Source of the DNA: an uncultured bacterium
Lineage (GTDB): Bacteria; Patescibacteriota; Minisyncoccia; Phycocordibacterales; CAIJYI01
Assembly: GCA_937871115.1 (NCBI GenBank)
Contig: CALMXW010000104.1
Span: forward strand, 1-18,941
Length of the DNA: 18,941 nt
Direction: 5' to 3'
This document shows, piece after piece, positions 5,980 to 14,727 of the stretch; the first letter of the stretch is position 1; each line of letters starts with the position of its first letter. Made by a program: the position numbers and the translations under genes. The notes below the pieces were generated by a model. That model did no database searches. It saw nothing but the letters and a program-made list of their open reading frames with translations, and was not told the DNA's origin.

Positions 5980-6804
5980 ATGGCTGAAGCAATTACCATC
6001 ATAAAACCGAAGAAAAAGTTCTCGCTCCAGGATATCCGCGAGCTCTGGCAGTATAAAGAGCTGCTCTACTTTTTCACGTGGCGTGACCTCAAGGTGCGCT
6101 ACAAACAGACCGTCATCGGAGTCGGCTGGGCGATCTTCCAACCCTTCATTACCATGGTGGTCTTTACGGTATTTTTTGGCACCCTCGCCAAAATGCCTTC
6201 GGACAACGTGCCTTACCCGGTCTTTGTGTACGTGGGGCTGCTCTTTTGGCAGTTTTTCTCTGGAGCACTTTCTGACACCAGCGCCACACTCGTGGGCAAC
6301 CAAGCCATCATCACAAAAGTCTACTTCCCTCGCCTCCTCTTGCCCCTCTCTTCGGTGTTTACGAAGTTTGTAGACTTTGCCATCTCTTCGGTAATCCTCG
6401 CCGTACTCATGGTGTACTACGGATACGCGCCAAACATTTGGGGATTCTTGATTCTTCCTATCCTCCTCGTCATCACCTTTATGGCATCGTCGGGTATCGG
6501 GCTCTTCCTCGCGGCGGTCAATGTTAAATACCGCGACGTACGCTACGTGCTCCCCTTTTTCATTCAAATGCTTCTCTTTCTTACTCCAGTTATTTACCCT
6601 TCGAGTATCGCCGGTAAATATTCCTGGCTCCTCGCCTTCAACCCCATGACAGGAGTGATCCAGACCGCTCGCGCCGCACTCTTCAATACTGCGCCCATCA
6701 ACCTCACCCTCGTCGGACTTTCTTTCCTCGCGAGCCTTGTGGCCCTCGTAATCGGCGTGATGTATTTTAAGACAGTAGAACGTTATTTTGCAGACATTAT
6801 ATGA
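5980..6804 (+). CDS. wzm: ABC-2 type polysaccharide export permease
   Basis: A 274-residue membrane protein of the Wzm/TagG/KpsM type, the channel half of an ABC transporter that moves lipid-linked polysaccharide across the cytoplasmic membrane. Seen: the family's N-terminal cytoplasmic helix followed by LKVRYKQTVIGVGWAIFQPF (about residues 38-57), then six hydrophobic segments (about 55-80, 85-105, 130-150, 155-190, 195-212, 240-263). Length is normal. A GGAGG sits 13 nt before the ATG, rather far. The stop overlaps the start of the ATPase gene by 4 bases (ATGA), so the two are translationally coupled. The symbol is given by family; the exported glycan is unknown. Confidence 0.93.
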   Translation: MAEAITIIKPKKKFSLQDIRELWQYKELLYFFTWRDLKVRYKQTVIGVGWAIFQPFITMVVFTVFFGTLAKMPSDNVPYPVFVYVGLLFWQFFSGALSDTSATLVGNQAIITKVYFPRLLLPLSSVFTKFVDFAISSVILAVLMVYYGYAPNIWGFLILPILLVITFMASSGIGLFLAAVNVKYRDVRYVLPFFIQMLLFLTPVIYPSSIAGKYSWLLAFNPMTGVIQTARAALFNTAPINLTLVGLSFLASLVALVIGVMYFKTVERYFADII

Positions 6805-8057
6805 GTCAGCCAATTATCGAAGTAAAAAATCTCGGAAAAAAATATAACATCACCCACCAGCAGGGTGGGTACATTGCCTTGCGTGACGTGCTCGCCTATA
6901 TCCTCAAAAAACCTTTCTCTTTCCTGAAAACAAAAGCAAAATCGATGGTCGGCGCGAGTACCAAAGAAGAATTCTGGGCGCTCCGAGGCGTTGATTTTTC
7001 GATCGACCAAGGCGAGGTCATTGGTATCATTGGGGCCAACGGTGCGGGCAAGTCGACTCTTCTCAAAATCCTCACCGGCATCACGCCACCCACCGAAGGC
7101 GAAGTGGTCATGCGCGGACGCGTCGCCTCTCTCCTCGAAGTCGGTACCGGCTTTCACCCCGAGCTCACCGGGCGCGAAAATATTTTCCTCAACGGCGCTA
7201 TCCTCGGTATGACACGAAAAGAAATCGCGAAAAAATTTGATGATATCGTAGAATTTGCCGGAGTCACACAATTTCTCGATACACCCGTGAAATATTATTC
7301 GAGCGGCATGTACGTCCGTCTCGCTTTCTCTGTCGCGGCACACATGGAGCCCGACATTCTCCTCGTCGACGAAGTACTCGCGGTGGGCGACGCAGAGTTT
7401 CAAAAGAAATGTCTCGGCAAGATGGAAGAAGTGACCAAAAAATCCGGCCGCACGATCCTTTTCATCAGCCACAACATGGGAGCGATCCAAAACCTCTGCA
7501 AGAAGACAATATTCCTCAAAAAAGGGAGAATAGAAATGTTTGGAAAGACCGACGATGTCATCCGTGCGTATCTGGAACACTCCGAAGCCGTTTCTTCCAC
7601 GGAATTTCAAGAAGACACGGAGAAGTCTGCACAAATACGAAAGATACAAATCCTCGATGCAAACAAAAACCCGACCGGGAAAGTGCCCATTAGTCAGAAG
7701 TTTTTTATTAAGATTGATTACGTCGTACGGCAGCCAATAAAACAAGCACTCCTGTATCTTTGGTTTTACTCCCGGGGAGAAATTCTTCTCTCCTCTTCAA
7801 GTGCGGACAAAGATGGCGTGCTCCGAGACTACGAGCCCGGGCAATATTCCACACTTGTCGAAATCCCTGCTTTTCTTTTCAATGTAGGATATTATTATTT
7901 CGATGTGCGTTTCCAGAAACCATTTATCGAAGATATTGATTATCAACTCAATTTAAGTTTTGAAGTCTCAGACGTGAGAAATCCCGTCTCAGAAATTTTC
8001 CACGGCAACAATGCCGGGAGGATTGCCACAATTCTTGAATATCATACCGAAAAATAA
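6801..8057 (+). CDS. wzt: ABC transporter ATP-binding protein with C-terminal glycan-binding domain
   Basis: A 418-residue ATPase partner of the permease. Seen: Walker A GANGAGKST (78-86), the short signature YYSSGMYVRLAF (165-176) typical of Wzt/TagH, Walker B ILLVDE (186-191) with the D-loop just after, and the switch His H224 in FISHN. Residues about 275-418 form a beta-rich extension matching the Wzt_C type, which in known systems reads the end of the finished O-antigen chain before export. An insertion at about 33-55 between the first strand and Walker A is common in this subfamily. Its 3' end leads into a methyltransferase 14 nt later, plausible because chain-end methylation is a known export signal in Wzt_C systems; the link here is inference. 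Confidence 0.94.
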   Translation: MSQPIIEVKNLGKKYNITHQQGGYIALRDVLAYILKKPFSFLKTKAKSMVGASTKEEFWALRGVDFSIDQGEVIGIIGANGAGKSTLLKILTGITPPTEGEVVMRGRVASLLEVGTGFHPELTGRENIFLNGAILGMTRKEIAKKFDDIVEFAGVTQFLDTPVKYYSSGMYVRLAFSVAAHMEPDILLVDEVLAVGDAEFQKKCLGKMEEVTKKSGRTILFISHNMGAIQNLCKKTIFLKKGRIEMFGKTDDVIRAYLEHSEAVSSTEFQEDTEKSAQIRKIQILDANKNPTGKVPISQKFFIKIDYVVRQPIKQALLYLWFYSRGEILLSSSSADKDGVLRDYEPGQYSTLVEIPAFLFNVGYYYFDVRFQKPFIEDIDYQLNLSFEVSDVRNPVSEIFHGNNAGRIATILEYHTEK

Positions 8058-8071
8058 AATACCAAAACCAT

Positions 8072-8947
8072 ATGTTGCTACACAAAATTATCGTCTTGAT
8101 GAGCGATATCGAGCATATTTTTTCTCCCGCATATAAGCACCCTCGCCGTGGAAAAATCTTGCGCAACTATCTTCGCATACGCGTACGGGCTTCACTCAAC
8201 CGCTGGTTCCACTTTACTCACGAACACTTTCTCGACTATCGTGTGGAGGTGCCCGACTACGATGTTTTCCTCGCCATTTTCCGCCAAATATTTGTCCGCC
8301 ACACGTACTATCTTGAAACAAAGAATTCCTCGCCAAAGATTATCGACTGCGGTGGAAATATCGGTATGTCCGTGCTCTATTTCAAATATCTCTACCCAAA
8401 TGCGAGCATTACCGTTTTCGAGCCATCACGTGAAGTCCTCTCCGTGATGAAACGAAATATCGAAGGGAACAAACTCAAAGATGTGAAGATTGTCGAAGCG
8501 GCAGTAAGCGCAAAAGATGGCGAACTTGAGATACACCCTCGCGGAAATGCAGCTTCCGGAAACACCCTTCTCTCCGGAATATCCGAAGCTACGCCAAAAA
8601 AAGGATTAGCCGAAAAGCCCTATACCGTAAAAACTGTCCGCCTTTCCCCACACATTCCAGAAACTCTCGATCTCTTGAAACTGGACATTGAAGGAAGCGA
8701 AGGGGGTGTCATTCAAGAGCTCGAAGATGCGGGGAAACTTCATTCTGTGAAGGAATATGTGATGGAATACCACTACTACCCACAAGTACCGGAAAACAAT
8801 TTCGGCGATCTCGTAAAATGTTTCGAGCGAAATGGGCTCGGCGTACAGATGTATTTCGAAGACATGCCGGCGGCATCCGAGCAACTCTCTTTTGCGCACA
8901 ACGGATCCTACGCTACCTCTCTCCGCACATCGCCCTTAAAAAAGTAA
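8072..8947 (+). CDS. FkbM-family methyltransferase
   Basis: A 291-residue class I SAM-dependent methyltransferase, probably O-methylating a sugar. Seen: SAM-binding IIDCGGNIGMS (90-100), the acidic end of the second strand in VFEPSR (115-120), and the FkbM signature LLKLDIEGSE (201-210). Residues 1-85 are a positively charged extension without a clear signal peptide. It follows wzt by 14 nt, suggesting the same transcript, but no SD is visible before the ATG at 8072. A second in-frame ATG at 8099 is an equally weak alternative. A strong hairpin follows the gene. Context suggests it modifies the glycan exported by the Wzm/Wzt pair. Confidence 0.88.
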   Translation: MLLHKIIVLMSDIEHIFSPAYKHPRRGKILRNYLRIRVRASLNRWFHFTHEHFLDYRVEVPDYDVFLAIFRQIFVRHTYYLETKNSSPKIIDCGGNIGMSVLYFKYLYPNASITVFEPSREVLSVMKRNIEGNKLKDVKIVEAAVSAKDGELEIHPRGNAASGNTLLSGISEATPKKGLAEKPYTVKTVRLSPHIPETLDLLKLDIEGSEGGVIQELEDAGKLHSVKEYVMEYHYYPQVPENNFGDLVKCFERNGLGVQMYFEDMPAASEQLSFAHNGSYATSLRTSPLKK

Positions 8948-8968
8948 TTTTTGTAGAATAAAACAACT

Positions 8969-9000
8969 GTAGATACTTTCTTTCAAAAGAAAGTATCTAC
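8969..9000. terminator. 15-bp hairpin after the FkbM gene
   Basis: Perfect 15-bp inverted repeat (8969-8983 with 8986-9000) with almost no loop, 21 nt after the methyltransferase stop. A T-rich run (about 9018-9024) follows only after 17 nt, so it is not a textbook intrinsic terminator, but it marks the operon end before the LamG gene. The rest of the 162-bp gap holds only the next promoter. Confidence 0.6.
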
Positions 9001-9041
9001 TTGGCGCCCTTGGTGTCTTTTTTTATATCCACTTTTCCTAC

Positions 9042-9072
9042 TTGTGCTCCAATGGGGTGGTAGGAGTATAAT
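9042..9072 (+). promoter_or_regulatory. Candidate promoter for the LamG gene
   Basis: Consensus TATAAT at 9067-9072 with a weak TTGTGC at 9042-9047 (19-nt spacer). It lies 37 nt before the ATG at 9110 and just after the hairpin ending the previous operon, so the LamG gene is probably its own transcription unit. Confidence 0.55.
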
Positions 9073-9109
9073 GCTATTTATTATCAAATAACTCATAGTT
9101 TTCATAAAA

Positions 9110-10306
9110 ATGAAATCATATAAGCGTTTGGGTGCGGCGGTTCTGCTTTTTATCGGAATTTTAATTACAAGTTTTACTGGGATAAAAGGAAGCAGTGTGC
9201 AAGCTGCAAATACTCATTCTATAGACATAGAAAGGGGTAGTTCTCAATATCTTTCCATATCAGATGGAAGTCAAACTGGTCTAGATATAACAGGAAACTT
9301 TACCATTGAATCTTGGATTAAACTTGAAAGTCTCCCGTCCGACGGACAAAATTATTTTATTGCTTCAAAGTGGGAAGACGGTGACTGGGCAAACGGATCC
9401 TACGAATTTCGTGTTCGAAACGCGGGCGGAACGCATTATCTCACCCTTTCTACTTCCAACGGAAGTACTGGGAATAATCCGGAAGTTTCTTGGTCACCAT
9501 CTACTGGCACTTGGTATCATGTCGCTGTTGTTTATACGACTAGTGGTACTGCAAAATTTTATGTAAATGGAACTCAACAGGGCTCAACCCAGACAGGGCT
9601 AGTTACAAGTATTCAAGACTCTGGTACATCTTTCCTTGTAGGTGCAAACGACCCAAGTTCTCCAACAAACTTCTTTGACGGACTTATTGATGATCTTCGA
9701 GTGTGGAACACCGCACGAACAGAAACAGAAATTTCTGACGACAAAGATCGAGAACTCAACGGTAACGAGACAGGCCTTGTTGGATATTGGAAACTCAACA
9801 ACTCCCTCTCAGACACAACAACCAACGGAAATACACTAACAAATAACAATAGTGCTATTTTTTCGACAGATACACCATTTTCTTTTACTGAGTTACTGAA
9901 GGTTCGTAAGTCCACTAGCGAATCCCTCTCAAGCTCTACTGTTCTTCAGAACGACGACGCCTTGAACTTAAGCCTTGATGCAAATAAAACATACATTATC
10001 GATGGTGTAATCTTTGCGTCTTCCACAAGTGCAACACCAGATATTCTCATAGGGTTTTTCGGTCAAACCGGCTCCATAATAACCATTGGCTACACCAATG
10101 ACGTGAATGAAATGGTATTGAGTTCTGGGGCTGCAAGCTCGCGAATAAACCTTCCGGCAAATACACCGACATCAATTCACATAAAAGGAACAGTGGTCAC
10201 AGGAAGCGCTTCTGGGGACTTTCAGCTCAAATGGGCACAAGCAACATCAAATGGCGCGCCAACGACCGTAATGGCAGGTAGCTACCTCAGAGCAGAGGCA
10301 ATCTAA
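9110..10306 (+). CDS. Secreted LamG-domain (concanavalin A-like) protein
   Basis: A 398-residue exported protein. Residues 1-32 are a clear signal peptide (KSYKR, hydrophobic core AAVLLFIGILI, VQA cleavage site). Residues about 36-245 are a LamG/concanavalin-like jelly roll: the repeated pattern FTIESWIKL, WYHVAVVY, AKFYVNGTQ, FFDGLIDDLRVWNTARTETEI and GLVGYWKLNN is typical of Laminin_G_3 glycan-binding domains. Residues about 258-398 are a second beta domain (KSTSESLSSSTVLQNDDAL through FQLKWAQATSNG to AGSYLRAEAI) that I recall from phage structural and adhesin-like proteins, so an adhesion role is plausible. There is no membrane anchor. The gene is visibly more AT-rich, and Ser/Thr/Asn-rich in product, than its neighbours, which may reflect transfer or an exported-protein bias. 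Confidence 0.85.
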   Translation: MKSYKRLGAAVLLFIGILITSFTGIKGSSVQAANTHSIDIERGSSQYLSISDGSQTGLDITGNFTIESWIKLESLPSDGQNYFIASKWEDGDWANGSYEFRVRNAGGTHYLTLSTSNGSTGNNPEVSWSPSTGTWYHVAVVYTTSGTAKFYVNGTQQGSTQTGLVTSIQDSGTSFLVGANDPSSPTNFFDGLIDDLRVWNTARTETEISDDKDRELNGNETGLVGYWKLNNSLSDTTTNGNTLTNNNSAIFSTDTPFSFTELLKVRKSTSESLSSSTVLQNDDALNLSLDANKTYIIDGVIFASSTSATPDILIGFFGQTGSIITIGYTNDVNEMVLSSGAASSRINLPANTPTSIHIKGTVVTGSASGDFQLKWAQATSNGAPTTVMAGSYLRAEAI

Positions 10307-10329
10307 TAAAAGAAAGACAAAGGCGCGTG

Positions 10330-10358
10330 CAACAAGTTAGCCTGTGGTTAACTTGTTG
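10330..10358 (+). terminator. Hairpin after the LamG gene
   Basis: A 10-bp perfect stem (10330-10339 with 10349-10358) around a 9-nt loop, followed by a T-rich TTGTTATAT stretch, 23 nt after the LamG stop. Reasonable weak intrinsic terminator separating LamG from asnB. Confidence 0.55.
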
Positions 10359-10408
10359 TTGTTATATAAATGGAAATATGGTCAAATCAAAATAAACAAC
10401 TAATCACC

Positions 10409-12229
10409 ATGTGCGGCATCCTCACCATCGCAGGCAAGAATATCGGGAAGTATGACACGCAAAAAGTGGGCGTGGCATTACAGACTCTCGCCCATCGCGG
10501 ACCAGACGAGCAGAAAGAAATGCGCTTTGAAAACTGCATCCTCGGGCAAGCACGGCTCTCCATCATCGACCTCGGTGGGGGCAAACAGCCGATGCGCAAC
10601 AACACAGAAAATATTGCTATCACCTTCAACGGCGAGATTTATAATTACAAAGAACTAAAAGAAGAACTTGAAAAGAAAGGTCACAAATTTTCTACGCAAT
10701 CCGACACAGAAGTCATCTTGAAAGCCTATCTCGAATATGGAAAAGAGTGCCCGAAGTATCTCGACGGCATGTTTGCATTTGCGATCTGGGACGAACGACA
10801 GGACAAGAATGGAGGCAAGAAAGAAATTTTTCTCGCCCGAGATCGCTTCGGCAAGAAGCCGCTGTACTACGCTTTTGATGCAGAAGGTGGCATCGTGATT
10901 GCGTCTGAGATAAAAACCATCGCCGCAGCGGGGATACGCCCCGTGCTTGATCCGGAGGGCATCGACGCCTACCTCACCTTTATGTACCTGCCACCATGGC
11001 GCACGGTGTATAAAAATATTTTTCCTATTCCACCTGCTCACTCGGCGCATTTCAGTGTCGATGCTACCGAGAAAATTTCACCCGTGCGATACTGGGCACT
11101 CGAACAAAAACCTATCGACCCAAAAGAAGTCTCCTACGACGATGCAAAAAGCCATGTGAAAGAGCTCCTCGTAAAAGCGGTAGAAAAACGCATGCTTGCT
11201 TCTGATGTTGAGGTGGGCTCTTTCCTCTCCGGCGGAGTAGACTCGACGCTCGTCACTGCGTACGCGCAAAAATTTGTGAGCCACCCTATTAAAACTTTCT
11301 CTGTGGGATACGACGGCGCGGGTGAGAAAAATGAACTGCCGTTTGCCGAAGTCGCTGCGAAAAAAATCGGCACCGATCATCACGTCCTCCACGCTTCTGC
11401 AGAGAATAAAGATGTGCTCGAAAACGCGATGGCGTATTTCGACGAGCCGCATGCCGACTCTGCCGACCTCGCCCAATACATTCTCTCCGAATACACCGCA
11501 AAGGAAGTAAAGGTGGCGCTCGCAGGCGACGGTGGCGATGAGCTTTTCCTCGGCTATGGCTGGCACACTGTTTTCTGGAATCGCCCCAAGCTTGCCCGGC
11601 TCAAAAACATGCTCACCTTCGCCACGCCCTACAGCGAGCACCTCCGCCTCGTGACACAATTCTCTCCCACCGAGCGCCGCCGCCTGATGAAGGACAATCT
11701 TTCAAGCAAAGTCGACATGGAGCATTTCTCTCGCGATTTTATCGGCACTGGCGTAGAAAAAATAAACGCATTCGATATCACCACCTACCTCCCCGGCCAG
11801 CTTCTCTCGAAAGTCGACATGATGAGCATGCGACATTCTCTCGAGGTGCGTTGCCCACTTCTCGACTATCAACTCGCAGAGTATGCATACAACTTGCCAC
11901 GGGCATATAAAATGAACACCGGTACCGGAAAGCTCATTTTGAAAGATTTGCTCGCAGAAATAATGCCGAGAGAGTTTGTGGACAGAAAGAAACAAGGCTT
12001 CGGCGCGCCGGTGCGACATTGGCTCTCACAGCCCGACATGCAAAAATATGTAGAAAAAAATCTCGCGCCAGGTGCAAAGATCTACAGCCTCCTTCGTGAA
12101 GAAGAAGTGCGAAAAATTCTCGCCGCCGCGTTCACCACCAAACGCCCGAAAGAAAGTTATCAAACCTGGATTCTCCTCTGTCTCGAGCTCTGGCTCAAAT
12201 CACATGAAGGGTTTTATAGGGTGGATTGA
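10409..12229 (+). CDS. asnB: Asparagine synthetase (glutamine-hydrolysing), AsnB type
   Basis: A 606-residue enzyme of the AsnB/WbpS class. The N-terminal class-II glutamine amidotransferase domain (about 1-215) starts MCGI, with Cys2 as the nucleophile once Met is removed; this fixes the start at 10409 and rules out the upstream in-frame ATG at 10370. Further signs are AHRGPDEQ (about 28-35), FNGEIYNY (73-80) and the SDTE motif (98-101). The C-terminal synthetase domain (about 240-590) carries the PP-loop SGGVDS (274-279) and the LAGDGGDELFLGY block. It makes asparagine from aspartate and glutamine with ATP. In glycan clusters, AsnB-like enzymes often amidate sugar acids, and that is a fair alternative here. 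No SD is visible. It ends convergent to the DGR template region. Confidence 0.92.
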   Translation: MCGILTIAGKNIGKYDTQKVGVALQTLAHRGPDEQKEMRFENCILGQARLSIIDLGGGKQPMRNNTENIAITFNGEIYNYKELKEELEKKGHKFSTQSDTEVILKAYLEYGKECPKYLDGMFAFAIWDERQDKNGGKKEIFLARDRFGKKPLYYAFDAEGGIVIASEIKTIAAAGIRPVLDPEGIDAYLTFMYLPPWRTVYKNIFPIPPAHSAHFSVDATEKISPVRYWALEQKPIDPKEVSYDDAKSHVKELLVKAVEKRMLASDVEVGSFLSGGVDSTLVTAYAQKFVSHPIKTFSVGYDGAGEKNELPFAEVAAKKIGTDHHVLHASAENKDVLENAMAYFDEPHADSADLAQYILSEYTAKEVKVALAGDGGDELFLGYGWHTVFWNRPKLARLKNMLTFATPYSEHLRLVTQFSPTERRRLMKDNLSSKVDMEHFSRDFIGTGVEKINAFDITTYLPGQLLSKVDMMSMRHSLEVRCPLLDYQLAEYAYNLPRAYKMNTGTGKLILKDLLAEIMPREFVDRKKQGFGAPVRHWLSQPDMQKYVEKNLAPGAKIYSLLREEEVRKILAAAFTTKRPKESYQTWILLCLELWLKSHEGFYRVD

Positions 12230-12310
12230 TCTTGAATTCTTTTTTGAAGTTTCCAACCCACTTGAAGAAACTGGTAGAATGCTCGGGGGATGGAAGAAGG
12301 GCATACAAGC

Positions 12311-12335
12311 AAAAACTCCCGCGAGATAGCGGGAG
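12311..12335 (-). terminator. Intrinsic terminator downstream of the DGR template repeat
   Basis: On the minus strand: CTCCCGC (12335-12329), a 6-nt loop, GCGGGAG (12322-12316), then TTTTT (12315-12311). It lies 9 nt past the end of the template repeat and would end a minus-strand template RNA. It has no T-run on the plus strand, so it should not serve asnB. Confidence 0.88.
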
Positions 12336-12344
12336 AAACATGTG

Positions 12345-12461
12345 GTTTCGAGAAAGGACTCGATTGCCCTCGCTCCACTGGCCGTTCTCGTCAAGCTTCC
12401 ACGCGTTCACGTTCCACTTGGCGTTGTCGCGATTCCAGTTCACGTTCACAACGAACACTTT
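12345..12461 (-). repeat. DGR template repeat (TR)
   Basis: Matches 12763-12879 at an offset of exactly 418 bp with no gaps. Over 12345-12460 there are 12 differences (plus-strand positions 12348, 12364, 12365, 12379, 12386, 12391, 12413, 12425, 12434, 12440, 12445, 12446). At all 12 this copy has T on the plus strand, that is A on the coding strand; the other copy has C (6), T (4) or G (2). A thirteenth A/C difference lies at 12461, at the edge. The segment has 32 coding-strand adenines, of which 12 differ, and 84 other bases, of which none differs. Read in the target frame it has nine Asn codons (AAC/AAT), the typical DGR design for variable positions. This polarity makes it the template, not a decayed gene copy. 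Confidence 0.95.
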
Positions 12462-12681
12462 CGTGCTTGCGGCCATCCATTCCACCACCCGTTGAATAAT
12501 CTTCGGGTTGAATCTGATTCGAGACATCGAAGTCCCAGAGCTACAAACACCAACAATATGTTTTTTGTTGAAGAAGTTGGAAGTCACTCCTGCGGAAACC
12601 GTAGCCGCAACAGACCTCGACTTTCAATTCTTAAAACCTCTGCCGTAAGCCGTAGCCAACAGCCTAGCAAGATTTGAATTG

Positions 12682-12710
12682 AGTATACCAAAACAAAAAC
12701 CCTCTGACAC
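12682..12710 (-). promoter_or_regulatory. Candidate promoter for the template RNA
   Basis: Minus strand: GTGTCA (12710-12705), 17-nt spacer, TATACT (12687-12682) with TGG directly before it (extended -10). The -35 overlaps the terminator stem of the target gene, so the two transcription units are packed back to back. Confidence 0.55.
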
Positions 12711-12732
12711 CCTGCTCGAAAGCAAAGTGTCA
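12691..12732 (-). terminator. Terminator of the DGR target gene (TTCG tetraloop)
   Basis: A 12-bp stem (12732-12721 with 12716-12705, including two G-T pairs) closed by a TTCG loop, followed by GAGGG and a T-rich run to 12691. It lies 27 nt after the target stop codon. Known DGRs need a stem-loop with a 4-nt loop shortly downstream of the VR for homing; this hairpin could serve that role too, although its loop does not match the GRNA consensus known from Bordetella phage. Confidence 0.82.
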
Positions 12733-12759
12733 AAGGTTCAAAGGTTAATGGCCCAAGGT

Positions 12760-13398
12760 TCAGTTGCGAGAAAGGACTCGAGGGCCCTCGCTCCACCGGC
12801 CGTACTCGACAAGCTTCCACGCGTTCACGTACCACTTGGCGTGGTCGCGATGCCAGTACACGCGCACAACGAACACTTGGACGCCAACCTGTAGGTAAAA
12901 AATGTTGGCATAGCCATTGTTCAGAAGCGTACCCTCTTCGCCTCTGGGTTGAAGCTTTACGAGAGCTCCAATCACCCAGAGGTCAGCCCAGGAAAAGACG
13001 TGGGCTGTCGGCAACTCAGCGCGAATCTCGCTATCGTACATATTCTTTGCGAGATCGTGCACCGACACGCCCAGTGCGGGCCGGTTGGTGACCGGACTCG
13101 CCGACGAAAGTACACAAGATTTGAAGTCGTCCCAAACGTACAGATTCACCTCGGTATTCCCGTTGCTGAAGAAGCCATCGGGGTCGAAAGTACCGACTAG
13201 TGGGCCAAGGGTTACTGGGTCCCGAGGGATCAAACCCCCAAGCCCGTCCGGAAACCGACCCTCAACCAACGCCTGTAAAGCGAGGTTCAGGAGGCTGGGA
13301 CTAAACGGGTAGCCCCCAGCCTGTCGGATCTGCCTCTTTATCTCGAACAACTTTCCGTCAAGCTGTTCGTACAAATCGCCTGTGACGATACTCGCCAT
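12760..13398 (-). CDS. DGR target (variable) protein
   Basis: A 212-residue protein of unknown function whose C-terminal 39 residues are encoded by the variable repeat. The start at 13398 is supported by AGGAG 7 nt upstream, one of few good SD sites here; an open frame upstream to 13509 lies in the leader. Residues 1-50 (GDLYEQLDGKLFEIKRQIRQ, then GYPFSPSLLNLALQALVEGRF) look helical and I recall similar N-termini in CPR hypothetical proteins. Residues about 55-172 look alpha/beta with several Trp. The variable end (174-212) keeps a W..N.W framework while varying at 179, 181, 183, 186, 190, 197, 199, 201 and 206; Arg, Tyr, His and Pro replace template Asn, Val replaces Asp197 and Arg replaces Gln201. 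By analogy with Mtd-like proteins this end probably forms a ligand-binding surface. No signal peptide or membrane segment is seen, so surface display is not shown. It has its own promoter, structured leader and terminator. Confidence 0.9.
   Translation of the reverse strand: MASIVTGDLYEQLDGKLFEIKRQIRQAGGYPFSPSLLNLALQALVEGRFPDGLGGLIPRDPVTLGPLVGTFDPDGFFSNGNTEVNLYVWDDFKSCVLSSASPVTNRPALGVSVHDLAKNMYDSEIRAELPTAHVFSWADLWVIGALVKLQPRGEEGTLLNNGYANIFYLQVGVQVFVVRVYWHRDHAKWYVNAWKLVEYGRWSEGPRVLSRN
12763..12879 (-). repeat. DGR variable repeat (VR)
   Basis: The mutated copy of the template repeat, ending directly before the TGA stop of the target gene (12762-12760); the template has CAC in that place. Differences give nine amino-acid changes and one silent change (CGA to CGC at R211). 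Seven of the nine template Asn codons are altered, two by double substitutions (AAC to CGC at 179, AAT to CCT at 206). The 3'-most bases shared with the template would be the site where homing starts. Confidence 0.95.
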
Positions 13399-13431
13399 GA
13401 CAATTCTCCTGTTTAGATTGCACTGTACAGC

Positions 13432-13502
13432 AAAAAAACGGCAATCCGCTTTGCCACAGCGGGGAATGTCCTGAAATACAGGGCACTTTCTGCTGTGGCA
13501 AA
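13432..13502 (-). promoter_or_regulatory. Attenuator-like leader of the DGR target gene
   Basis: In the minus-strand RNA, segment 1 (13502-13492, TTTGCCACAGC) pairs over 11 bp with segment 2 (13460-13450, GCTGTGGCAAA), enclosing a 6-bp hairpin (13484-13479 with 13473-13468). Segment 2 also holds GGCAA, which can instead pair with TTGCC (13444-13440) to give a short hairpin followed after one G by seven Ts (13438-13432), a terminator-like shape. The two pairings exclude each other, as in attenuators. The terminator stem is only 5 bp, so this is a suggestion. The SD and ATG follow about 30 nt later. Confidence 0.5.
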
Positions 13503-13529
13503 ACTTCAAGATTTATTTCAAATAGCTAG

Positions 13530-13562
13530 AAATAGTGTACACTATTTGTGCTTTGTTGTCAA
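13530..13562 (-). promoter_or_regulatory. Promoter and palindromic operator of the DGR target gene
   Basis: Minus strand: TTGACA (13562-13557), 17-nt spacer, TACACT (13539-13534). An 18-bp perfect palindrome, AAATAGTGTACACTATTT (13530-13547), covers the -10 and part of the spacer, where a repressor would block polymerase. Another AAATAG lies at 13520-13525, one helical turn away. Transcription would start near 13527, leaving a leader of about 130 nt. Confidence 0.75.
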
Positions 13563-13585
13563 TAACTCTGGTTAGAAAAACAAGC

Positions 13586-13591
13586 TATGCT
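13586..13591 (+). promoter_or_regulatory. Candidate -10 box (TATGCT) for the GT4 gene
   Basis: TATGCT ends 8 nt before the ATG at 13600, so the transcript would have almost no leader, though a G-rich TAGGGGGC immediately precedes the ATG. No good -35 is seen. The 200-bp gap to the DGR target gene is otherwise filled by that gene's promoter and leader. Confidence 0.3.
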
Positions 13592-13599
13592 TAGGGGGC

Positions 13600-14727
13600 A
13601 TGAATCTCTCCGAGCTCACCCGTAAAATTCTCAAAAAACTCCGTGGTGGGGTGGTGACACTTCGCGCAAAAGGCGATGTGCGTGGGCGGGTGCTCCTCTC
13701 CTATACCACACTTCCTTTCATCTCGCCCCAATCCATCGGCGGGCACACAAATAGGTGGGAGTGCCAGCGCATAGCAGAGATCTGGAGCGAGCATGGGTAC
13801 ACGGTGGATATTGTAGATTTCGACAATCTCTCTTTTCTTCCAAACCCGAAAAAGAAATATGACTACTGTATTGATATTCAAAACAGACTCGAAGATTTCA
13901 CACCACACCTGCCGAAAGAATGCGTGAAGATTTTTCATGTTACCACCGCGCATTGGAAATTTAATAATGACGCGGAGCAAAAACGCATTGAAGAAATAAA
14001 TAAGAAACGAAACACCTCACTCTCTCCGAGCCGCGGATTGCCACCGTCTAAAAATATTGAACTTGCCGACAGGGTGACCATGCTCGGCAATGACTTCACT
14101 GAAAGTACCTACGCTTTCGCGGGAAAGAAAATAGTCCACATTCCCATTTCTACCACGCATCTTTACGACTCTCCGGAGAAAAAAGATTTTGAGAAAGCGC
14201 GAAAGAGCTATGTGTGGATCGGTGGAGCGGGTATGGCACACAAAGGACTCGACCTTGTACTCGAAGCTTTCGTTGCAATGCCGGAATACAACCTCGTGAT
14301 TTTTGGAAAACCAGAAATTGGTTTTGTGGAGGCGTATCACAACGAGCTCTACAAGACCGCAAATATTCACTATGTTGGAAACATCGATCTGGGAAGTAAA
14401 AAATTCATCGATATTGCCGACACTTCACTTGGAATAATATTCCCATCCTGTTCGGAGGGTGGTGGCGGATCAGTGGTCAGTATGATGCACGCTGGTATTA
14501 TTCCCATTGCAAGTTATGAGGCAAGTGTAGACGTAGAATATTTCGGAATTATCCTGAAAGAAAATACCGTAGTCGAAATTGAAAAAGAAATCCGAGCGCT
14601 CTCTTCCCTCCCCACAGAAACACTTCGCGAGTGGGCCGTGAAAGCGTGGGGCTATGCACGAGCACATCACACGCGCGAAACATTTTCGGAAGCGTATGAA
14701 AAATTTGTAGACGAAGTGACAAAATAA
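13600..14727 (+). CDS. Glycosyltransferase, GT4-like (GT-B fold)
   Basis: A 375-residue cytoplasmic glycosyltransferase. The N-terminal half carries the acceptor-side Rossmann features (GRVLLSYTTLPFI, then GGHTNRWECQRIAEIWSEHGYTVDIVDFD, about residues 29-74). The C-terminal half has the donor-binding signs: WIGGAGMAHKGLDLVLEAF (206-224), a GT4-type strand-loop, then PSCSEGGGGSVVSMMHAGIIP (from 282), where the Glu of the E-x7-E-like region and the Gly-rich loop contact the nucleotide sugar. Length is usual for GT4. Sugar and linkage cannot be read from sequence. It is the first plus-strand gene after the DGR locus and continues the glycan cluster. Confidence 0.87.
   Translation: MNLSELTRKILKKLRGGVVTLRAKGDVRGRVLLSYTTLPFISPQSIGGHTNRWECQRIAEIWSEHGYTVDIVDFDNLSFLPNPKKKYDYCIDIQNRLEDFTPHLPKECVKIFHVTTAHWKFNNDAEQKRIEEINKKRNTSLSPSRGLPPSKNIELADRVTMLGNDFTESTYAFAGKKIVHIPISTTHLYDSPEKKDFEKARKSYVWIGGAGMAHKGLDLVLEAFVAMPEYNLVIFGKPEIGFVEAYHNELYKTANIHYVGNIDLGSKKFIDIADTSLGIIFPSCSEGGGGSVVSMMHAGIIPIASYEASVDVEYFGIILKENTVVEIEKEIRALSSLPTETLREWAVKAWGYARAHHTRETFSEAYEKFVDEVTK

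Follow-up and report, generated by a model that had tools for sequence, protein, structure and literature searches.

Can the end of a gene be diversified from a template at a locus that carries no reverse transcriptase (RT)? The question is raised by the window analysed here, a whole contig (C104) of 18.9 kb from a draft genome, likely patescibacterial, that totals 753,628 bases over 142 contigs and is estimated to be 95.7% complete. The window holds a genuine template repeat (TR) and variable repeat (VR) of the diversity-generating retroelement (DGR) type, as part of a cassette that has a conserved RNA leader but no RT (Table 1). A preliminary description had assigned the locus to the DGRs. 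The DGR-type TR/VR part of that claim stands, and is backed by homologous loci in other members of the order, which carry both RT and Avd, whereas a full DGR is not what the window contains: a DGR-type RT gene is absent from the 18.9-kb contig, and of avd only about 28 C-terminal codons are left, unlike in complete relatives. The absent RT and the structured RNA immediately upstream of the TR had both been overlooked.

The template/variable pair and its target gene

In a repeat search of the window, 12345-12460 and 12763-12878 form the sole long direct-repeat family (116 nt, gapless, 90% identity), and the second family is a 27-nt pair of 78% identity. Read on the minus strand, all 12 differences between the TR and VR1 in these 116 nt fall at TR adenines (hypergeometric p = 3.3e-8), while none of the 84 non-A sites of the TR is changed in VR1. 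Repeat search and base tabulation thus agree with the preliminary description, which had reported two gap-free 116-bp copies with 12 differences, all at coding-strand A of the 12345 copy and none at the 84 other bases; its estimate of roughly 2 in 10 million for such an outcome by chance turns out to be conservative. The check that it proposed, aligning 12345-12461 with 12763-12879 by template base, takes in an additional A>C at base 12461/12879 and places 13 of 13 substitutions at A (p = 9e-9). These comprise seven A>C, four A>T, and two A>G changes; at the codon level, 10 of 39 residues differ and one change is silent. The template had been described as rich in AAC codons, and 9 of its 39 aligned codons are indeed AAC or AAT. 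The mutated copy had been placed at the C-terminal coding end of a gene, up to the stop, and the 12763 copy indeed runs as far as the final sense codon of a 212-aa ORF.

An origin of this pair in a DGR is well supported. The alternative is an ordinary partial gene duplication that has since drifted, with its adenine specificity due to chance or to a general A-directed mutator. That no RT was found would suit such a history, but a chance probability of ~1e-8 and the presence of DGR-type RT and Avd at homologous loci already contradict it, and we find it scarcely credible.

The target gene starts with an ATG at 13398-13396 that is preceded by GGAG. Its product has 24 other database proteins as relatives at E<=0.001 (19 of the 25 target-family proteins from the database search were taken in and the rest dropped) and has no match in Pfam or NCBIfam (E<=0.01) or in PHROG (E<=0.1). 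Behind VR1 lies an imperfect hairpin of 26 nt that also serves as a terminator; it recurs behind VR2, the variable repeat of another target gene (contig C90), where a single base opposite a G is altered from C to T. The BPP-1 target rule is a hairpin or cruciform shortly behind the VR with the loop GRNA (PMC3240598); the loop in the window is TTCG, not GRNA.

Several further features surround the cassette. The imperfect inverted repeat at 13450-13502 resembles positions 7617-7715 of locus L200: in an alignment of 106 columns that takes in the ribosome-binding site the two are 82% identical. It thus precedes two otherwise different target genes, that of the window and a third target on contig C83; it is possibly a shared regulatory leader or a mobile unit. 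An N-terminal module (GDLYEQLDGKLFEIKRQIRQ.GGYP and variants; 13260-13398 in the window) is common to the target proteins P0021, L067, L075, and L083, which differ in their C-terminal VR regions, so that the targets are modular. A perfect 34-nt inverted repeat with a 24-nt loop occupies 903-994, between two gene ends. The neighbours of the cassette (5980-14727) encode ABC-2 transporter, FkbM methyltransferase, glycosyltransferase, and Laminin-G-like domains, and the setting of the cassette is likely a cell-surface one.

Table 1. Features of the cassette and its flanks, in window coordinates.
Feature	Position	Strand	Remarks
asnB-like gene	10370..12229	plus	stops 10 nt before avd remnant
Antisense avd remnant	12240..12329	plus	final ~28 codons with their stop (FFEVSNPLEETGRMLGGWKKGIQAKTPAR); matches avd end at E 3e-10 (28 aa, 64% identity)
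Hairpin and T-run, intrinsic-terminator type	12309..12335	minus	9 nt behind TR; counterparts in relatives
TR	12345..12461	minus	differs from VR1 at 13/33 adenines and 0/84 other bases
Three-way-junction RNA leader (model R1)	12462..12555	minus	abuts 5' end of TR
Extra hairpin upstream of leader	12581..12623	minus	from a 15-sequence alignment (weaker); outside model R1
Imperfect hairpin and terminator	12706..12731	minus	starts 31 nt behind VR1; candidate target-site hairpin
Target gene, 212 aa	12760..13398	minus	stop codon included; VR1 is its 3' end
VR1 (variable repeat)	12763..12879	minus	closes on last sense codon of target gene
Imperfect inverted repeat, 24-nt arms	13450..13502	minus	upstream of target gene

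Complete relatives and the leader RNA

Matches to the target protein were present in 26 of 148 sampled genomes of the order. TR/VR loci were sought around these matches and around the RTs of some of the same genomes, which yielded 16 adenine-biased loci, counting that of the window; they come from 14 of the 26 genomes, and the remaining 12 had none. Read along the TR strand, a complete locus consists of a target gene with its VR, the leader, the TR, and a hairpin terminator, followed by avd on the opposite strand and then by the RT gene on the TR strand. The window keeps the leader, the TR, the terminator, and the end of avd, after which comes asnB. The profile of the relatives' RTs matches chain 8ub7 (E 4e-56), which we take to be the BPP-1 enzyme. 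Two small antisense proteins of relatives scored 38 and 37 bits against bAvd (PF22296; cut-off 40) and 54 and 62 bits against the NCBIfam family DivGenRetAVD (cut-off 80). An antisense avd match of at least 90 aa lies within 1.2 kb of every one of the 34 RT-linked leaders that were examined.

The alignable leader RNA of the relatives is about 93 nt long, with an 11-pair closing helix and two hairpins, and its nearly invariant unpaired bases are UUGG, AU, AU.CA, and GUG. Model R1 was built from 13 of the 16 TR loci, leaving out L067, whose leader is not alignable, and L100 and L103, which carry long insertions. Across these 13 sequences 95.3% of cells are paired, compared with 32.5-47.3% when the partners are slid by 1-3 columns, and compensatory change occurs at 17 of 20 pairs. 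It occurs at 19 of 20 pairs among 73 distinct sequences, an alignment that leans towards the model (83 R1 matches gave 73 places once ten duplicates of one place were dropped). The window leader folded by itself beats its shuffles only modestly (z -1.7; 11 of 200 shuffles as good), so the case for a leader RNA rests on covariation. Against R1 the window leader scores 84.4 bits (E 9e-18) over its full length, a partly circular result since the window is one of the 13 model rows. R1 matches 134 of 397 genomes of the order (E<=0.01) and 65 of 379 genomes sampled across the phylum (E<=0.001). It fails to match L103, which indicates that divergent leaders escape this census. Rfam returned no family for the window at gathering level, and none for 12290-12760 up to E=1.

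Probable loss of RT and avd in the window and across the order

Searches of the window and the draft genome found no RT, either with Pfam RVT_1 or with a profile of 12 DGR-type RTs from relatives. Of 397 genomes of the order, 172 have a match to the profile (E<=1e-5), and therefore the query works. What we take, from its sequence, to be an asnB-like gene sits where relatives carry the remainder of avd and the RT. The avd remnant behind asnB, whose final codons overlap the TR terminator on the opposite strand, aligns with the end of avd in relatives, so that the RT and some three quarters of avd are missing at precisely the positions that they occupy there. Deletion is the simplest account of how the RT and most of avd were removed.

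A different account is that the contig wrongly joins a DGR to asnB and that the RT truly adjoins the TR. The draft is fragmented into 142 contigs, repeats of the TR/VR type are hard to assemble, and C90 stops 137 nt behind the VR2 gene, all of which would be compatible with a misassembly. Against it, 26 other leaders in 25 other genomes are also without an RT, on contigs that continue for at least 1.4 kb, and the joint lies in no repeat of at least 24 nt within the window. We regard an artefact of this kind as very improbable.

Among the 150 leaders listed from the 397 genomes, 111 are RT-linked, 27 are RT-less, and 12 are unclear; more matches exist for the leaders, as for the RTs, of which 150 were likewise listed. 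A same-strand RT match lies downstream of 106 of the listed leaders, at 500-656 nt in 105 cases and at 900 nt in one. By tblastn the remaining 44 comprise 5 that are RT-linked, 3 that are followed by a fragment of an RT, 9 that have a contig end within 800 nt, and 27 that are RT-less, meaning that no tblastn RT match was present within 3.5 kb (2.2 kb for L075) or up to the nearer contig end (1.4 kb for L076). L154 was counted as RT-linked through a partial RT match. All 27 RT-less leaders, the window's among them, have at least 1.4 kb of contig downstream. Antisense avd matches (E<=0.01) reach at least 90 aa at 2 of the 27 loci, are shorter at 10, and are absent at 15; the traces include the avd 3' end and are graded in length, the shortest being 11-13 residues with weak E-values. 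RT-profile matches are absent from 12 of the 134 leader-bearing genomes.

Three leaders, L147 (G241:C38), L156 (G162:C40), and L143 (G093:C6), are followed only by a match to a C-terminal RT fragment and are possible intermediate stages of RT loss. Another, L139 (G238:C3, 4688-4781), scores 90.7 bits in a 9.5-kb locus with no VR and no avd match, and its genome, which is in 4 contigs and rated 100% complete, has no RT.

A VR of at least 45 nt was present at 20 of the 27 RT-less loci, with an adenine bias of p<1e-5 in 16 of the 20. No such VR was found within 1.5 kb at L139, L145, L146, L153, L155, L161, and L173, four of which have less than 450 nt upstream. For comparison we used 34 of the 111 RT-linked leaders, mostly the best-scoring ones and those reached through target homologs; a script located the VR at 32 of them (that of L095 is inverted and downstream, and none was found at L090). 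Changes affect 256 of 553 template adenines (46%) and 42 of 1783 other sites (2.4%) in the RT-less pairs (n=20), and 503 of 1021 adenines (49%) and 51 of 2969 other sites (1.7%) in the RT-linked pairs (n=32). The per-locus rate at non-A sites does not differ detectably between these small samples (Mann-Whitney p=0.61), which is an absence of difference and not proof of activity. Leader scores are not comparable between the groups (medians 86.7 bits RT-linked and 77.5 RT-less), since the RT-linked group was chosen largely by score; the middle of the 150 listed leaders lies at ~76 bits by hand count, so the RT-less leaders are not weaker.

Individual RT-less pairs vary. Eight of the 20 have no non-A differences at all (the window, L075, L076, L138, L157, L160, L165, and L175), L140 and L174 have 11 non-A changes each and L159 has 7, and at L142 neither of the two TR/VR differences is at A. 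The DGR RT profile finds an RT elsewhere (E<1e-100) in the genomes of 12 of the 20 pairs and only weaker matches in G134 and G387, while G000, G029, G077, G123, G185, and G343, the six that include the window's own genome, have no match at E<=1e-5.

The layout around the leader is similar in both groups. TR/VR homology begins 0-3 nt behind the leader at 23 of 32 RT-linked and 13 of 18 RT-less loci (VR of at least 90 nt), and in the window the leader's 3' end lies one base from the start of TR/VR identity. The leader therefore delimits the template on its 5' side. A terminator-type hairpin lies within 300 nt of the leader at 32 of 34 RT-linked and 23 of 27 RT-less loci in a simple scan with no background control, whose doubtful hits include L106, L076, and L161. 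We rejected a long-range pairing of the 3' part of the leader (GGUGG) with the CCANCCNCC site behind the terminator: at the 45 loci with the site, true partners are no better than shuffled ones (0.19 of shuffles at least as good). We infer that the CCANCCNCC site represents the Avd codons for LGGW.

Use in trans or recent decay

Two further target loci of this genome have to be considered here. The gene on C90 (L007:3350-3832) shares 71% protein identity with the window target over residues 56-212, and its VR2 differs from the window TR at 30 sites, 21 at A and 9 at other bases; with 9 non-A differences, the window TR has not rewritten VR2 recently. C83 (L200) carries a third target-like ORF, from an ATG at 7712 to 8473, whose VR-like end reads through a TR-type terminator, and on the strand opposite the ORF an avd remnant of 32 codons (8394-8489), the only other avd trace found in the genome. 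R1 detects no leader on C90 or on C83. The C83 locus may have formed by collapse of VR and TR after RT loss. A genome with three target loci, two remnants of avd, and no RT found points to recent decay; a TR/VR pair this clean and a leader that is still intact point to use that is recent or continues today.

On balance we consider it probable that the window carries an RT-less DGR cassette whose RNA can be served in trans by RT and Avd from another locus. The end of the target gene would have been written by error-prone reverse transcription of a template RNA, with the cDNA then recombined into the gene, and the RT and most of avd would have been lost by deletion. The RNA unit would consist of leader, TR, and terminator, ~250 nt in all. 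RT and Avd would recognise the leader, which possibly also sets the stop point of cDNA synthesis, and when made at another locus they would use the cassette RNA in trans. In this genome the RT would come from an unassembled part, or would have been lost recently; many relatives do have another locus. Speaking for service in trans are the RTs elsewhere in the genomes of 12 of the 20 RT-less pairs, and an adenine specificity of the RT-less pairs that is not measurably below that of RT-linked ones.

The main rival to service in trans is a dead relic, a complete DGR that lost its RT and most of its avd too recently for TR and VR to drift, and whose gene is no longer rewritten. The lack of an RT in a 95.7% complete draft, the C83 locus, which also closes in an avd remnant and has no R1 leader, and the drift of VR2 at non-A sites count both in favour of a relic and against trans service. 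Drift in L140, L174, L159, and L142 is a further point against trans service, and the 6 of 20 RT-less pairs in genomes without an RT-profile match are a further point for a relic. A relic is harder to reconcile with the unchanged 84 non-A sites, with a leader that still scores 84 bits over its full length, with RT-less pairs that, taken together, show no measurable excess of drift over RT-linked ones, and with the RTs present elsewhere in the genomes of 12 of the 20. We therefore see decay as a serious but rather doubtful explanation of the window.

Published systems offer both parallels and contrasts. Complete DGR loci akin to those of Patescibacteria (Roux et al. 2021, PMC8144416) are found in other genomes of the window's order. 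The complete patescibacterial DGRs resemble the window in a homologous leader, a C-terminal VR, and adenine bias, and differ from it in having both RT and avd, of which the window lacks the first and almost the whole of the second. Roux et al. describe a DGR clade restricted to Patescibacteria (PMC8144416), and the relatives' RTs likely belong to their DGR clade 2.

The BPP-1 DGR and the window have in common an adenine-mutagenic transfer from TR to VR (PMC3240598, PMC12875486). In BPP-1 the avd gene is located ahead of the TR, and both the priming adenine and the RNA structure by which RT and Avd are recruited are found on the 3' side of the TR (PMC12875486). Unlike in BPP-1, the conserved structure found in the loci examined here is 5' of the TR, a terminator-type hairpin stands directly behind the TR, and avd, in antisense orientation, separates the TR from the RT. 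With a 5' structure and a terminator-type hairpin immediately after the TR, these loci would need a different arrangement of recognition, and possibly of priming, from that of BPP-1.

RT-less loci with diversified targets, some of them best explained in trans, have been described in Thiohalocapsa PB-PSB1 (Dore et al. 2024, PMC10907252), and these degenerate DGR loci are a direct precedent for the window cassette. In Thiohalocapsa, MITE-like arrays had taken the place of the RT at two loci, and the genome has a complete locus of each class; in the order studied here, many loci lack the RT and part of avd, and searches of the window genome found no RT. The partial DGRs of nanoarchaea (Paul et al. 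2015, PMC4372165) likewise have adenine-mutated VR genes away from an RT; they consist of target, VR, and cis elements only, while the window retains its own TR and leader. With these precedents, RT-less diversified loci and action in trans are already known. Titles and opening lines of abstracts, a scope outside which the key DGR papers fell, contained no description of a 5' leader RNA or of a recurrent RT-less layout in the order.

Roux et al. state that DGRs whose VR does not adjoin the RT escape their detection (PMC8144416), and a cyanobacterial survey looked first within 5 kb of the RT. Surveys confined to the neighbourhood of the RT undercount diversified genes, and solo cassettes, if they are functional in trans, are invisible to them. 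A covarying RNA 5' of the TR provides an RT-independent marker for DGR templates. More tentatively, and in a form that we find plausible but would not yet favour, patescibacterial DGRs may be split systems, in which a free-standing small template RNA has a leader that, in place of the 3' spacer of BPP-1, recruits RT and Avd and ends cDNA synthesis, and in which solo cassettes functional in trans are a regular form. The leader RNA thereby opens the question of which part of the RNA is recognised by a non-phage DGR RT, and that of one RT serving many templates.
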